This document shows, piece after piece, positions 31,649-38,488 of a stretch of DNA of 64,000 nt (its first letter is position 1; the number at the start of each line of letters is the position of its first letter). The DNA lies in assembly GCA_017302655.1 (NCBI GenBank), contig JAFLDE010000004.1, positions 33,177 to 97,176 on the forward strand, given 5' to 3'. Position numbers and translations under genes: made by a program. The stretch is from Burkholderiales bacterium (lineage in GTDB: Bacteria; Pseudomonadota; Gammaproteobacteria; Burkholderiales; Burkholderiaceae_C). The notes below the pieces were generated by a model. The model did no database searches. It had not been told where the DNA came from and worked only from the letters and a program-made list of their open reading frames with translations.

Positions 31649-32601
31649 GTTCGTTCTCCTTGGTTGAGCCAGGCCCTCAGGCACAGCTCGGTGATGGCGG
31701 GGGCGTTGGCGTCGACGGCCACCGCGTGCTCGGGCAAATCGCGCCAATCGGCGCCGCCCAATCGTTGCCAATCTTGCGTGGTCTGGCCATGGGCCAGGCC
31801 ACCCTCCACCACCCGCACCGGGCCCTGGCGCCATTGCAGCGTTGTCGGCGCCAGCAAGGGCATGAGCGCGATGGCGTCGTGCGCCACCAGCACCTCCTGG
31901 CCGTAATGGCGGTGGTAGAAGTCGATGTAGGGCATGGCCGCCCGGTGCAGCAATCGGGCCACGGCATCGCCATCCGCCAACGCCGCCAGCGCAGCGCGCG
32001 GCATGCGCACTCGCTGCGTCGCGTCCAGGCCCACCACATGCAGCCGGCGCCAGGGGGCGGCGAAGACTTCGTCGGCTGCGCGGGCGTCGTTGAAGACATT
32101 CGCCTCGGCGTTGGGGGTGACGTTGCCGCCCTGCCCGTGCAGGCCGAAGGCACCGCCCATCAGGGTGACGCTGGCCAGGCGCTGCGGCAAGTCAGGGTCC
32201 AGGCGCAAGGCTTGCGCCAGGTTGGTGAAGGGGCCAACGGCCGCCAGGTGCAAATCCGGCTCTTTCCGAGCCGCGCGAATGATGGCCTCGGCCGCAGGCA
32301 TCTGCTCCGCCTGCCGACGCGGTGCGGGCAACGAAGCCGCATGCCCCCCCAGGCCGTCGCCCCCATGCACCTCGGGCGCAAGGCGCGGCGAACCCTGCAA
32401 CGGACCTGCCGCACCCGCATGCACCGGAACGTCGAGGCCCAGCAAGGCACACAGGCCCAGCGCATTGGCAGTGGTGGTGCGCACATCGGCATTGCCAAAG
32501 ACCGTGGACAGACCGACCAGCTCAAAGGCCGGGCTGCGCGCGATCAAAGCCAGGGCGAGCGCGTCGTCCACGCCCGGGTCGGTGTCGAACCAGAGCTTCA
32601 T
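31645..32601 (-). CDS. Nucleoside hydrolase (IunH/RihA-like)
   Basis: 318 residues. The calcium-binding signature WFDTDPGVDDALALAL starts at residue 4, and the family's LAAVGPFTNLAQAL and NVFNDARAADEVF motifs follow, with the late Asp in VAHDAIALMPLL. It hydrolyses N-ribosides to base and ribose. It overlaps ribokinase upstream and the amidohydrolase downstream by ATGA, so the released ribose could be phosphorylated by the neighbouring enzyme. Base preference cannot be read. Confidence 0.92.
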   Translation of the reverse strand: MKLWFDTDPGVDDALALALIARSPAFELVGLSTVFGNADVRTTTANALGLCALLGLDVPVHAGAAGPLQGSPRLAPEVHGGDGLGGHAASLPAPRRQAEQMPAAEAIIRAARKEPDLHLAAVGPFTNLAQALRLDPDLPQRLASVTLMGGAFGLHGQGGNVTPNAEANVFNDARAADEVFAAPWRRLHVVGLDATQRVRMPRAALAALADGDAVARLLHRAAMPYIDFYHRHYGQEVLVAHDAIALMPLLAPTTLQWRQGPVRVVEGGLAHGQTTQDWQRLGGADWRDLPEHAVAVDANAPAITELCLRAWLNQGERT

Positions 32602-33557: not shown

Positions 33558-34871
33558 TCAACGCTGCGCCAGCGGCGTCACGTTGCGGCTCTTGGCGCCC
33601 ACGAAGAGTTGCCGCGGACGGCCGATCTTGTACTCAGGATCGCCAATCATCTCGTTGAGCTGAGCGATCCAGCCCACCGTGCGCGCCAGCGCAAAGATGG
33701 CCGTGAACAGCGGCACCGGGATGCCAATCGCGCGTTGCACGATGCCCGAGTAGAAGTCGACGTTCGGGTAGAGCTTGCGGGCGACGAAGTATTCGTCTTC
33801 CAGCGCGATCTTCTCCAGTTCCATGGCCAGCTTGAACAGCGGGTCATCCTGCAGGCCGAGTTCGTTCAGCACCTCGTAGCAGGTTTCGCGCATGAGCTTG
33901 GCACGCGGGTCGTAGTTCTTGTAGACCCGGTGCCCGAAGCCCATCAGCTTGACACCGCTGTTCTTGTCCTTGACCTTGCCGATGAACTCACCAATCTTGG
34001 CCACGCCGCCCATTTGCTGGATGTCGCCGAGCATCTCCAAGCAAGCCTCGTTGGCGCCACCGTGGGCCGGGCCCCAAAGGCAGGCCACGCCTGCCGCAAT
34101 GGCCGCGAAGGGGTTGGTGCCGGAGGAACCGCACAGGCGCACCGTGCTGGTGGAGGCGTTCTGCTCGTGGTCGGCGTGCAGGGTGAAGATGCGGTCCATC
34201 GCGCGCACCAACACCTCGTTCGGCTTGTACTCCTCGCAGGGCGTGGCAAACATCATGCGCATGAAGTTGCCGGCGTAGGACAGGTCGTTCTTCGGGTAGA
34301 TGTACGGCTGACCCACGGTGTACTTGTAGGCCATGGCCACCAGCGTCGGCATCTTGGCGATCAAGCGGATCGCCGCGATTTCGCGGTGCTCGGGGTTATG
34401 GACGTCGGTGCTGTCGTGATAGAAGGCCGAGAGCGCCCCCACGAGGCCGGTCATCACGGCCATCGGGTGGGCATCGCGACGGAACCCGCGCAGGAAGAAC
34501 TGCATCTGCTCGTTGACCATCGTGTGGCGCATCACACGCTGGTTGAACGCTTCCTTCTGACTGGCGTTGGGCAACTCGCCGTACAGCAGCAGGTAGCAGG
34601 TCTCCAGGTAATCGCAGTTCACCGCCAGTTGCTCGATGGGGTAACCGCGGTAGAGCAACTCGCCCTTGTCACCATCGATGTACGTGATGGTGCTGTTGCA
34701 AGAAGCGGTGGAAAGGAAGCCGGGGTCGTAGGTGAACTTGCCGGTCTGCGCGTACAGCTTGCGGATGTCGATCACATCCGGGCCGATGGAGCCCTTGTAG
34801 ATGGGCAACTCCATGCTGGGGCTGCCGTCGCTGAAGGCCAGCGTGGCTTTGATGTCGGAAGGGGTCATCAT
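33558..34871 (-). CDS. gltA: Citrate synthase (type II, hexameric)
   Basis: 437 residues. Catalyses oxaloacetate plus acetyl-CoA to citrate. Motifs include [31 protein letters not shown], the catalytic His in [31 protein letters not shown], and [15 protein letters not shown] with Asp in [10 protein letters not shown]. The length and N-terminal domain are those of the NADH-sensitive Gram-negative form. AAGGAG lies just upstream of the ATGATG start. It is last in sdhCDAB-sdhE-gltA, followed by an intrinsic terminator. Confidence 0.98.
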
Positions 34872-34887: not shown

Positions 34888-35166
34888 TCAGTGATTCTGT
34901 GACGGTGCCGGTCGGCGCATCAATGCCAACAATGCATGAACCTCGGCTCGGTTCAGCACGCCTTCTGGTTCGCGGCGTGCGAGCAGCAGGTCGAGCAGAT
35001 CGTTGTCGGACAGGTCCATCAGAGCGGAAAGCGCTTCACCCTGTTCGCAACTGATACGGCCCTCGTGCTCGGCGAAGAATCGCTCGATGAACAGGTCGTT
35101 CTCCAACAGCCCGCGGCGGCAGCGCCAGCGCAGCTTGGAGAGCGAGCGTTCGTCGAGCAGGTTCAT
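34888..35166 (-). CDS. sdhE: FAD assembly factor SdhE
   Basis: 92 residues. SdhE promotes covalent flavinylation of SdhA; the conserved RGxxE motif appears as [14 protein letters not shown], and the C-terminal [14 protein letters not shown] matches the family. There is no Shine-Dalgarno: the start codon is the last ATGA of an 8-bp tandem repeat that begins at the sdhB stop, so translation is probably coupled to sdhB by re-initiation. gltA follows 16 bp later. Confidence 0.93.
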
Positions 35167-35210
35167 ACAGTCATACGGTCATACGGTCATACGGTCATAC
35201 GGTCATACGG
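35163..35210 (-). repeat. Six-copy 8-bp tandem repeat linking the sdhB stop to the sdhE start
   Basis: On the plus strand the unit is TCATACGG, six copies in a row, the copy nearest sdhE having one change (TCATACAG). On the coding strand each unit carries ATGA. The first ATGA contains the sdhB stop; the last is the sdhE start. In between, each ATG opens a three-codon frame (Met-Thr-Val) whose stop overlaps the next ATG. Confidence 0.95.
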
Positions 35211-35910
35211 CGCGGCGCACCATCAGTTCCTTGATCTTGCCGATGGCCTTGGTGGGGTTCAGACCCTTGGGGCAGACGTCGACGCAGTTCATGATGCTGT
35301 GGCAGCGGAACAGGCGGTACGGGTCTTCCAGGTTGTCCAGACGCTCCGAGGTCGCCTGATCGCGGCTGTCGGCAATGAAGCGATAGGCCTGCAGCAAGCC
35401 AGCGGGACCCACAAACTTGTCCGGGTTCCACCAGAAGCTCGGACAGCTCGTGCTGCAGCTGGCGCAGAGGATGCACTCGTAAAGACCGTCCAGTTCCTCG
35501 CGCTCCTCGGGGGACTGCAAGCGCTCCTTTTCAGGCGGAATGCTGTCGTTGATGAGGTAAGGCTTGATCGAGTGGTACTGCTTGAAGAACTGCGTCATGT
35601 CGACGATCAGGTCGCGCACGACGGGCAAGCCCGGCAGGGGCTTGAGCGTCACCACCTGCGGCAGTGAGCGCATATTGGTCAGGCAGGCCAGTCCGTTCTT
35701 GCCGTTGATGTTCATCGCGTCCGACCCACACACGCCTTCGCGGCAGGAGCGGCGGAAAGACAGCGTGGGATCGACGGATTTCAGCTTGAGCAAGGCGTCC
35801 AGCAGCATGCGTTCGGACCCGTCGAGTTCCACCTCGAGGGTCTGCATGTAGGGCTTGGCGTCCTTGTCGGGGTCGTAGCGGTAGACCTTGAAGGTGCGCT
35901 TGTCGGCCAT
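35203..35910 (-). CDS. sdhB: Succinate dehydrogenase iron-sulfur subunit
   Basis: 235 residues from the ATG at 35910, preceded by GGAG at 6 nt; an ATG 12 bp upstream is less well placed. The 2Fe-2S site reads [21 protein letters not shown], split over residues about 54-75, and the 4Fe-4S/3Fe-4S sites are [16 protein letters not shown] and [17 protein letters not shown]. It passes electrons from SdhA flavin to quinone in complex II. The C-terminal VRRAV and stop lie inside the first unit of the tandem repeat. Confidence 0.97.
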
Positions 35911-35924
35911 CTTCTTCTCCATTC

Positions 35925-37685
35925 TTAGAACGTGCGCACCTTGGGGGGGATGCTCTCGACGGTGAGCGGCTGCATCTTCACCGGCTTGTAGGACAGCTTC
36001 GAGCCTTCGGAGTACCAGAGCGAGTGCTTCATCCAGTTGGCGTCGTCGCGGTTCGGGTAGTCGTTGTGGGCGTGCGCACCCCGGCTCTCCGGGCGAGCTG
36101 CGGCGGAGACGATGGTCGCTTGCGCAGCCTCGATGAGGTTCTCGACCTCCAGCGCCTCGATGCGTGCGGTGTTGAAGACCTTGCTCTTGTCCTTCAGGCC
36201 GATGGACTTGACGCGCTCGCGCAGCTGCGCGACCTTGGCCACGCCTTCGTCCATGCTGGCTTGGGTGCGGAACACCCCCGCGTGCTTCTGCATGGTGGCA
36301 CGCAGATCGTTGGCCACGTCCTGCGCGTACTCGCCGTTGCTCGCGCCGTCCAGTCGCGCCAGGCGCGCCAAAGTGCGATCGGCCGCATCCTTGGGTACCG
36401 GCTTGAACTCGCGGTTCTTCAGGTTGAAGTCGACGATGTGGCGACCGGCTGCGCGACCGAAGACGACCAGGTCGAGCAGCGAGTTGGTGCCCAGGCGATT
36501 GGCGCCGTGGACGCTGACACAGGAGCATTCGCCCACCGCGTACAGCCCATTGATGATGTTGTTGGGGTTGTCGCCCTTGGGCGTGACGACCTGACCATGG
36601 ATGTTGGTCGGGATGCCCCCCATTTGGTAGTGGATGGTCGGCACCACCGGGATCGGTTCCTTGGTGATGTCGACGTTGGCGAAGTTGTGACCGATCTCGA
36701 ACACCGAGGGCAGGCGCTTCAGGATGGTGTCCTTGCCCAGGTGGGTCATGTCGAGCAGCACATAGTCCTTGTTCGGACCGCAGCCGCGCCCTTCCTTGAT
36801 TTCCTGGTCCATCGAACGCGACACGAAGTCGCGCGGCGCCAAGTCCTTCAACGTCGGCGCGTAGCGCTGCATGAAGGCGTCACCGTTGGCGTTGCGCAGG
36901 ATTGCCCCCTCGCCTCGGCAGCCTTCAGTGAGCAGCACGCCGGCACCGGCCACCCCGGTCGGGTGGAATTGCCAGAACTCCATGTCTTCCAGCGGAATGC
37001 CGGCACGCGCCGCCATGCCCAGGCCATCCCCGGTGTTGATGAAGGCATTGGTGCTGGCCGCGTAGATGCGTCCGGCACCGCCGGTGGCCATCAGGACGGT
37101 CTTGGCTTGCAGGATGTGGACTTCGCCTGTTTCCATCTCCAGCGCCGTGACCCCGACGCAGTCGCCGTCTGCGTCAAGGATCAGGTCGAGCGCCATCCAC
37201 TCGACGAAGAACTGCGTGCGCGCCTTGACGTTCTGCTGGTACAGGGTGTGCAGCAGCGCATGGCCGGTGCGGTCCGCCGCCGCGCAGGCGCGCTGTACGG
37301 GCTTCTCGCCGTAATTGGCGGTGTGGCCACCGAAGGGGCGCTGGTAGATCGTGCCGTCCGGGTTGCGGTCGAAAGGCATGCCCAGGTGTTCGAGCTCGTA
37401 CACCACCTTGGGCGCCTCGCGGCACATGAACTCGATGGCGTCCTGGTCGCCCAACCAATCCGATCCCTTGACGGTGTCGAAGAAGTGGTAGTGCCAGTTG
37501 TCTTCGCTCATGTTGCCCAGCGAAGCCCCGATGCCCCCCTGCGCCGCCACGGTGTGCGAACGGGTGGGGAAGACCTTGGACAAGCAGGCCACGTTCAGGC
37601 CGGCCTGCGCCAGTTGCAGCGACGCGCGCATGCCGGAGCCGCCCGCACCGACGATGACGACGTCGAATTTTCTTGTAGTCAGCAT
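35925..37685 (-). CDS. sdhA: Succinate dehydrogenase flavoprotein subunit
   Basis: 586 residues. FAD-binding start [20 protein letters not shown], the flavin-linking His in [18 protein letters not shown], active-site motifs [20 protein letters not shown] and [15 protein letters not shown], and [10 protein letters not shown]. Oxidises succinate to fumarate on the cytoplasmic face of complex II. It follows sdhD by 4 bp and precedes sdhB by 14 bp. Confidence 0.98.
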
Positions 37686-37689
37686 GGCT

Positions 37690-38049
37690 TCACAGCCTCC
37701 AGAGCACTTGAACTGCCCAACCGGTGCAACCCACCAGCCAGACCAAGGTGAAGACGTGCAGGCACAGGCGGATGCCCACCGGCTTCACGTAATCCATCCA
37801 GATGTCACGAACGCCCACCCACGCGTGGTAAGCCAGCGAGACGATCAGCGCGAAAGTCAGAACCTTCATCCACTGCGCAGAGAAGATGCCGGACCAGCGC
37901 ACATAGTTCATTTCGCCTGGTGCCAGCACTTGCGCGAGCAGCGCCAGCGTGAACAGGGCCATCAGCGCGCCAGTGACGCGCTGGGCCAGCCAATCGCGCA
38001 AGCCATAACTCGCCCCGGTGACGAGGCGCTTGTTTCCATAAGTGCTCAT
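37690..38049 (-). CDS. sdhD: Succinate dehydrogenase membrane anchor subunit D
   Basis: 119 residues with three TM helices (RVTGALMALFTLALLAQVL; VLTFALIVSLAYHAWVGV; LCLHVFTLVWLVGCTGWAV). The haem-ligand His lies in SLAYHAWVGVRDIWMDYVKP, the pattern seen in proteobacterial SdhD. It anchors SdhAB and helps form the quinone site. It lies 13 bp after sdhC. Confidence 0.93.
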   Translation of the reverse strand: MSTYGNKRLVTGASYGLRDWLAQRVTGALMALFTLALLAQVLAPGEMNYVRWSGIFSAQWMKVLTFALIVSLAYHAWVGVRDIWMDYVKPVGIRLCLHVFTLVWLVGCTGWAVQVLWRL

Positions 38050-38062
38050 CGTTGCGCCTCCC

Positions 38063-38488
38063 TCAGTACAGGCCGAACAGCTTGGCGCCCAGCAGCGCGG
38101 TCAAAAGCAGGCTGAGCGTGAGCACCACCACAGCGCTGGACCGACCTTGCTCTTTGCTTACTGAATGCGTCGCATCCATCCACAAGTGGCGCATCCCCGC
38201 CAGGAAGTGATGCAGGTACGCCCAGATCAGCGCCAGCACCGCGAGCTTTACGAGCAGCGCAGGCACGAAGCCAATGCCAGCCTCGAAGGCGCTGCGGAAC
38301 ACCTCGAAACTGATCTCGCTCGTCACGCTGGTGTCGAACAACCAGACGATGAAGGGCAGCAACAGAAAGAGGAGCAAGCCGCTGATGCGGTGCAGGATGG
38401 ACACGAAACCAGCCACTGGCAGCCGGTATCCCGGCAAGTCAGTTAACACATGGACGTTCGTGTAGACGGGACGGGGCTTGGTGCTCAT
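38063..38488 (-). CDS. sdhC: Succinate dehydrogenase cytochrome b556 subunit
   Basis: 141 residues, three TM helices. Family motifs are RPVYTNVHVLTDLPGYRLPV at the start (PRP and quinone-site residues), SILHRISGLLLFL with quinone-site Ser/Arg, and the haem His in LHHFLAGMRHLWMD. First gene of the sdhCDAB-sdhE-gltA operon, divergent from mdh. Confidence 0.95.
   Translation of the reverse strand: MSTKPRPVYTNVHVLTDLPGYRLPVAGFVSILHRISGLLLFLLLPFIVWLFDTSVTSEISFEVFRSAFEAGIGFVPALLVKLAVLALIWAYLHHFLAGMRHLWMDATHSVSKEQGRSSAVVVLTLSLLLTALLGAKLFGLY

Follow-up and report, generated by a model that had tools for sequence, protein, structure and literature searches.

How is a downstream gene translated when a tandem repeat parts it from its upstream neighbor and no Shine-Dalgarno (SD) sequence precedes it? 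The junction between sdhB and sdhE in a 64,000-nt stretch of a Burkholderiales bacterium genome (contig JAFLDE010000004.1, positions 33,177 to 97,176; hereafter the window) raises this question. The gap is filled by a stop-start ladder, a row of 8-bp units in which stop and start codons overlap, which was described in an earlier reading of the letters of the window (the first-pass annotation). That observation is confirmed here; the feature is real and more general than first described, and it is mechanistically plausible.

A stop-start ladder between sdhB and sdhE

The ladder, its mini-frames and the two genes that it separates are as follows.

35163..35210, minus strand: stop-start ladder of six 8-bp units, five CGTATGAC and a last TGTATGAA on the coding strand
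35195..35206, minus strand: mini-frame 1, Met-Thr-Val-stop, its ATG overlapping the sdhB stop (4 nt)
35187..35198, minus strand: mini-frame 2, Met-Thr-Val-stop
35179..35190, minus strand: mini-frame 3, Met-Thr-Val-stop
35171..35182, minus strand: mini-frame 4, Met-Thr-Val-stop
35163..35174, minus strand: mini-frame 5, Met-Thr-Val-stop, its stop overlapping the sdhE start (4 nt)
35203..35910, minus strand: sdhB, succinate dehydrogenase iron-sulfur subunit, 235 aa (Pfam Fer2_3 and 4Fe-4S families)
34888..35166, minus strand: sdhE, flavinylation factor, 92 aa (Pfam Sdh5)

The ATGA tetramers lie on the minus strand at 35203-35206, 35195-35198, 35187-35190, 35179-35182, 35171-35174, and 35163-35166. 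The 3' end of sdhB reads GCC GTA TGA, with the stop (35203-35205) inside the first ATGA; the sdhE start (35164-35166) is in the last, 36 nt away. Units 1 to 5 each encode Met-Thr-Val and terminate in the following ATGA, and unit 6 begins the 92-aa SdhE frame. The first-pass annotation had stated that six 8-bp copies exactly fill the span from the sdhB stop to the sdhE start and form five mini-frames, and both statements hold. It had assigned the first unit to the sdhB stop and the last to the sdhE start, which is correct, except that unit 1 doubles as a start and unit 6 as a stop, and the overlaps number six. All six ATGAs of the chain thus have the overlap (4 or 1 nt) that marks termination-reinitiation; sdhB and sdhE, taken directly, are 36 nt apart.

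Tandem Repeats Finder reported a period of 8, 6.0 copies, 97% matches and a score of 89 at exactly 35163-35210, the highest score among 41 rows in the window. The run of bases identical to the base 8 positions further on is 33 bases long at the array, and for every other period between 4 and 14 the maximum in the window is 7 to 10. By a first-order Markov model, about 3e-11 six-copy period-8 ATGA arrays are expected per 64 kb. No second run of at least three ATGAs at spacing 8 was found genome-wide, and a genome-wide repeat family was ruled out, the array being single. RNA structure was also ruled out as the basis of the junction, since its folding was no more stable than that of shuffled sequences (z +1.1; 179 of 200 shuffles at least as stable).

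Start signals and gene cluster

The remaining genes of the cluster are listed below; the order is sdhC-sdhD-sdhA-sdhB-sdhE-gltA, with gaps of 13, 4, 14, 36, and 16 nt.

38063..38488, minus strand: sdhC (Pfam Sdh_cyt; named from position)
37690..38049, minus strand: sdhD (Pfam Sdh_cyt; named from position)
35925..37685, minus strand: sdhA (Pfam FAD_binding_2, Succ_DH_flav_C)
33558..34871, minus strand: gltA, citrate synthase (Pfam), next after sdhE

Four of five congeners have the same SdhB C-terminus and the fifth has a one-residue difference, and the SdhE start agrees with that of the closest congener; neither gene therefore looks truncated. The 22 nt upstream of sdhE pair with the anti-SD sequence at −1.0 kcal/mol, compared with −5.9 to −11.4 kcal/mol for sdhC, sdhD, sdhA, sdhB, and gltA, and about 6% of 1500 random 20-mers from the window pair as weakly. 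This bears out the earlier statement that sdhE has no SD sequence of its own. In the five congeners, the 20 nt before the start nearest to the sdhB stop pair at −4.5 to −7.9 kcal/mol, so the ladder separates sdhE from this stretch. Elsewhere in the window, at 32598-32601, two genes that we take to be ribokinase-like and nucleoside-hydrolase-like share a plain 4-nt ATGA overlap, a single-step version of the ladder.

The same junction in relatives

The first-pass annotation had set beforehand a non-repetitive junction in close relatives as a refuting outcome, and this is what was found. In all five congeners compared, sdhE follows sdhB without a ladder, with a 1-nt overlap (TGATG, −1) in four and a 2-nt gap (+2) in one. 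The ladder is therefore recent and species-specific among the genomes compared, which does not by itself refute the mechanism. An earlier ATGA overlap at this junction may be supposed; the congeners show TGATG or the +2 gap and no intermediate. In a wider set of 80 loci, the best 80 of 426 relatives, with titles mostly bearing Burkholderiales names, inspection of the printed junctions by eye showed no ladder. The gap to the closest start ranged from −11 to +37 nt in the 71 of 85 loci, other than the window's own, where the start-finder worked.

Ladders at other gene junctions

We searched genomes of the same family for four ATGAs at a fixed spacing of 8, 11, 7 or 10. Matches occurred in 19/399, 32/393, 8/393, and 5/329 genomes, respectively, and a backwards-pattern control matched in 2, 4, 4, and 1 genomes, the spacing classes being alike (p 1.0). 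Many of the arrays were intergenic or antisense. We rejected the interpretation of all the excess 11-bp arrays (32/393 versus 4 backwards) as ladders, since some of them are found at histidine kinase genes or a short way upstream and may be regulator operators; only strict junctions were counted. A junction was called strict if the upstream stop lay in the first ATGA and the downstream start in the last, and Pfam-supported if both sides had a Pfam match. Besides the sdhB-sdhE junction, six strict, Pfam-supported junctions were found in the family, one with 8-bp and five with 11-bp units.

Spacing 8: sdhB then sdhE, in the window
Spacing 8: POR-domain gene then MFS_4 transporter, in two species
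Spacing 11: Spermine_synth then Amino_oxidase (spermidine synthase and amine oxidase)
Spacing 11: TPR protein then MutL
Spacing 11: isochorismatase then FAD-binding
Spacing 11: SoxZ then SoxA
Spacing 11: AroE then MtgA

The stop-start ladder is thus not a one-off but recurs at other gene pairs in the family. At spacings 7 and 10, no strict junction with Pfam matches on both sides was found in 722 genome searches, whereas spacings 8 and 11 together gave 8 in 792 (Fisher p 0.008); counted as independent loci, the numbers are 0 and 7 (p 0.016). The gaps at the further ladder junctions are 29-52 nt. Anti-SD pairing downstream of Pfam-supported ladders is −0.6 to −1.6, except for SoxA (−7.6) and MtgA (−4.4), and its weakness is partly due to the composition of the repeat itself.

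A strict test by length of open reading frame (ORF) alone, run on all sets with one script and requiring at least 60 aa on both sides (counts for at least 90 aa in brackets), gave 4 (3) of 19 family loci at spacing 8, with one gene pair common to two genomes; 10 (7) of 30 loci at spacing 11, with G313, G025, and one place in G329 left out; 1 (1) among 24 loci holding 14 distinct arrays at spacing 7; and 0 of 5 loci at spacing 10. Pfam covered both sides at L097, L100, L101, L378, L389, L391, L395, L397, L400, and L404, the downstream side only at L380 and L405, and neither side at L098, L382, and L383. L389 matched on neither side, and L378, the strict locus at spacing 7, on the upstream side only. 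Because Pfam covered at most one side of five strict loci, the count of eight Pfam-supported genomes may be slightly low.

Other arrays were seen in the course of the search. Genome G466 carries one array of 24 ATGACCTA copies (L136) with no clear genes in ladder register, and G251 carries short 7-bp ATGACGA/ATGACGG arrays at six places (L357, L365, L370, L375, L378, and L379). At or shortly upstream of the histidine kinase genes (Pfam) at L380 and L405, and with a long frame shortly downstream at L386, L398, L403, and L406, there are 11-bp-spaced ATGAs that may be response-regulator operators.

Among viral contigs (IMG/VR; 80 loci per spacing among the matches listed, of 120 stretches), there were no strict ladders at spacings 8 and 10 and at least one at spacing 11 among those matches. 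The latter (L489:5109-5156), with five perfect 11-bp copies of ATGAGCAAGAT, separates a phage terminase gene from an ORF of 79 aa. The ladder is missing from four of the five relatives of L489 (57-63% identity), two of these four being alike at the junction, and the fifth ends 12 nt past the stop. In a phage group (L276-L279, L187, and L190) for which the names TerS and TerL and a Bacteroidetes host are our own assignment, the TerS-TerL gap holds ATGACCCA arrays of 7 or 13 copies, and in L279 it holds ATGACCA with a period of 7.

Copy number differs between related species

The first-pass annotation had also claimed that copy number can change without harm to either protein. Such change is seen between related species at other junctions, though not at sdhB-sdhE. 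At the POR/MFS_4 junction, G265 has 8 copies and G090 has 6, and the two genes of G790 (L151) share just one ATGA overlap, followed 9 nt later by a second ATGA in frame with MFS. At the isochorismatase/FAD junction, G328 has 4 copies, three species with 86-90% protein identity (L694-L696) have one ATGA overlap each, and in seven species that are more distant the genes are 4 nt apart; 20 of 22 genomes of this genus matched, and 11 of the 13 loci inspected had a readable junction. The AroE/MtgA junction has an 11-nt ladder in all seven species of one genus: five species have 2 units, one has 3, and one has 4; ATGA and its 11-nt spacing are kept, and the spacers are similar in five species and different in the other two. 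Both genes are open in every copy-number variant of these three junctions. The relatives of SoxZ/SoxA were uninformative on ladder change. An overlap first and an expansion later would be the simplest order of events, which is not proof of it.

Proposed mechanism

On balance, we think it probable that the ladder is a slippage-expanded ATGA overlap that keeps sdhE coupled to sdhB across 36 nt by stepwise re-initiation. Slippage would recently have turned a 4-nt ATGA overlap of sdhB and sdhE into six 8-bp units. A ribosome finishing sdhB would re-initiate on the overlapping ATG, make Met-Thr-Val and stop in the next ATGA, and five such rounds would bring it to the sdhE start with no need of an SD sequence, each step having the overlap type that is commonest in prokaryotes. 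In E. coli, a gap of 38 nt reduces re-initiation by 80-90% in two gene pairs and abolishes it in a third (PMC10666635), and at 40 nt it is <3% (PMC2268962; these papers and those cited below are drawn on in excerpt). A ribosome leaving sdhB should therefore rarely reach sdhE unaided.

A period of 3n+2 sets each ATG in the frame of the TGA that follows it directly, and the chain would therefore reach the last unit at any copy number, and expansions and contractions would be tolerated. With a period of 3n+1, every other unit would be skipped, and with 3n the downstream protein would be extended. The first-pass annotation had argued that the period of 8 protects the two proteins; both genes survive duplication of any period, however, and what requires 3n+2 is stepping onto the next unit. 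Each extra step should reduce the SdhE yield, and copy-number tuning would follow if steps lose ribosomes. The relay is likely, and dose tuning is speculative. Stepping, already proposed in the first-pass annotation, is something we still infer, and indirectly, from the 36-nt gap, the missing SD sequence, the tight junctions of the congeners and the recurring architecture; the direction of change in the relatives and the fall in yield with copy number are likewise our reading.

Several points weigh against this mechanism. The contrast between spacings covers 7, 8, 10, and 11, none of them divisible by 3, and comes from few loci, with the same genomes recurring across searches. An order-wide search matched in 17 of 399 genomes (12 of the 399 being family members already searched), and none of its 17 further loci was strict. 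The wider relatives have ladder-free gaps of up to 37 nt, showing that tight coupling of sdhE is not obligatory, and the array, with its almost perfect units and its occurrence in a single one of the species compared, looks as young neutral slippage would predict. Ribosomes or peptidyl-tRNA may be lost at every three-codon frame, so that five steps could yield very little. Finally, PMC10666635 also cites work that favors scanning across longer gaps.

A wider claim would be that 3n+2 ladders are a recurrent, selectively kept relay that grows from ATGA overlaps at unrelated operon junctions and bridges gaps that would otherwise break coupling, with copy number as a heritable, protein-neutral dial on the product ratio. 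We regard this as doubtful. If the relay operates, a ladder whose number of steps can be changed with the proteins unchanged would be a measuring rod, since the yield at different step numbers would give the re-initiation efficiency per step; the mechanism of translational coupling is described as not firmly established (PMC12548453, in the part drawn on). The ladder also suggests how coupled genes may move apart and still stay coupled, and it offers a compact way to set protein ratios by design.

Alternative explanations

The best-surviving alternative is neutral slippage alone, in which tandem duplication at a stop-start overlap spares both genes, the mini-frames are useless, and sdhE is translated by ribosomes that drift to it after terminating sdhB or that initiate there weakly on their own. 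This is possible, in our estimate, but not probable. The near-perfect repeat in a single species and the varied sdhB-sdhE gaps tolerated in relatives agree with it, as do the phage TerS-TerL arrays, of period 8 and in one case of period 7, at which alternate steps are skipped. Against it stand the confinement of strict, Pfam-supported ladders to spacings 8 and 11 (8/792 versus 0/722; p 0.008) and the constancy of ATGA and the 11-nt spacing at AroE/MtgA in all seven species despite spacer differences (five being similar).

It might also be proposed that the array is an evolved rheostat, in which copy number within a population sets the SdhE:SdhB ratio and reversible tuning is the selected function. 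Copies do differ among related species at comparable junctions (8, 6, and 1; 4 and 1; 4, 3, and 2) with the genes open, and promoter tandem-repeat copies in a mycobacterium are reported to change at 1e-2 to 1e-3 per chromosome (PMC12817950). However, the ATGA arrays of three near-identical phage contigs all have 7 copies, and a 48-bp array of 8-bp repeats may not slip often enough. We regard such a function as improbable.

A DNA element, with the direct repeats binding a regulator or holding a promoter for sdhE-gltA, is very unlikely. Some 11-bp ATGA arrays lie near histidine kinase gene starts (L380 and L405) and resemble OmpR-family operators, which are direct repeats. Promoter activity has also been reported for the senX3-regX3 intergenic region, which bears mycobacterial interspersed repetitive units (MIRUs) (PMC4213456). 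However, the 8-bp period is out of step with the helical turn, the array occurs once only in the genome, and the exact fit of the first unit to the stop and the last to the start is not expected of an operator. An assembly error in the repeat length, conceivable in a draft genome of 203 contigs, is hardly credible for 48 bp, which is shorter than an ordinary read, and with comparable arrays present in other genomes.

Comparison with known systems

The OmpR-type operator has 11-bp direct repeats at a spacing near the helical turn; the ladder has a period of 8, and only some 11-bp arrays elsewhere might be of this kind. Termination-reinitiation takes place at short overlaps such as ATGA (PMC6728339, PMC10666635), and each of the six ATGA overlaps is that signal. 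However, the cases described in the excerpts concern one overlap between two genes, whereas the ladder is a tandem chain of three-codon frames over a long gap. The Salmonella mini-ORF mgtQ (PMC8092293) is likewise a very short ORF between operon genes that aids translation of the next gene, but it is single, has no repeat and frees a sequestered ribosome-binding site, and the ladder junction has no unusual fold. In phase-variable promoters with tandem repeats (PMC12817950), copy number could alter expression, as in the ladder; those repeats are in promoters, whereas the ladder is intergenic and would act, if at all, through a graded loss with every step. In the open-access text searched, we found no account of such short stop-start ladders.

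The closest resemblance is to MIRUs, such as that of senX3-regX3 (PMC12548453, PMC4213456), where several units stand between two operon genes and unit lengths differ between two strains. The MIRU ORF overlaps the next frame by −4 nt (PMC12548453), as do the frames of the ladder, and the MIRU unit lengths of 77 and 53 bp are both 3n+2 by our arithmetic, like the ladder periods. MIRU units, however, are 53 or 77 bp long in the excerpts, apparently mobile and mycobacterial, whereas ladder units are 8 or 11 bp, seemingly local and locus-specific in sequence. The unit here is 8 bp, the best SdhE relatives have mostly Burkholderiales names, the genome holds one spacing-8 run of at least three ATGAs rather than a dispersed mobile family, and the units differ between loci. 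The short ladders thus work like MIRUs but are not MIRUs, which are the nearest known kind.
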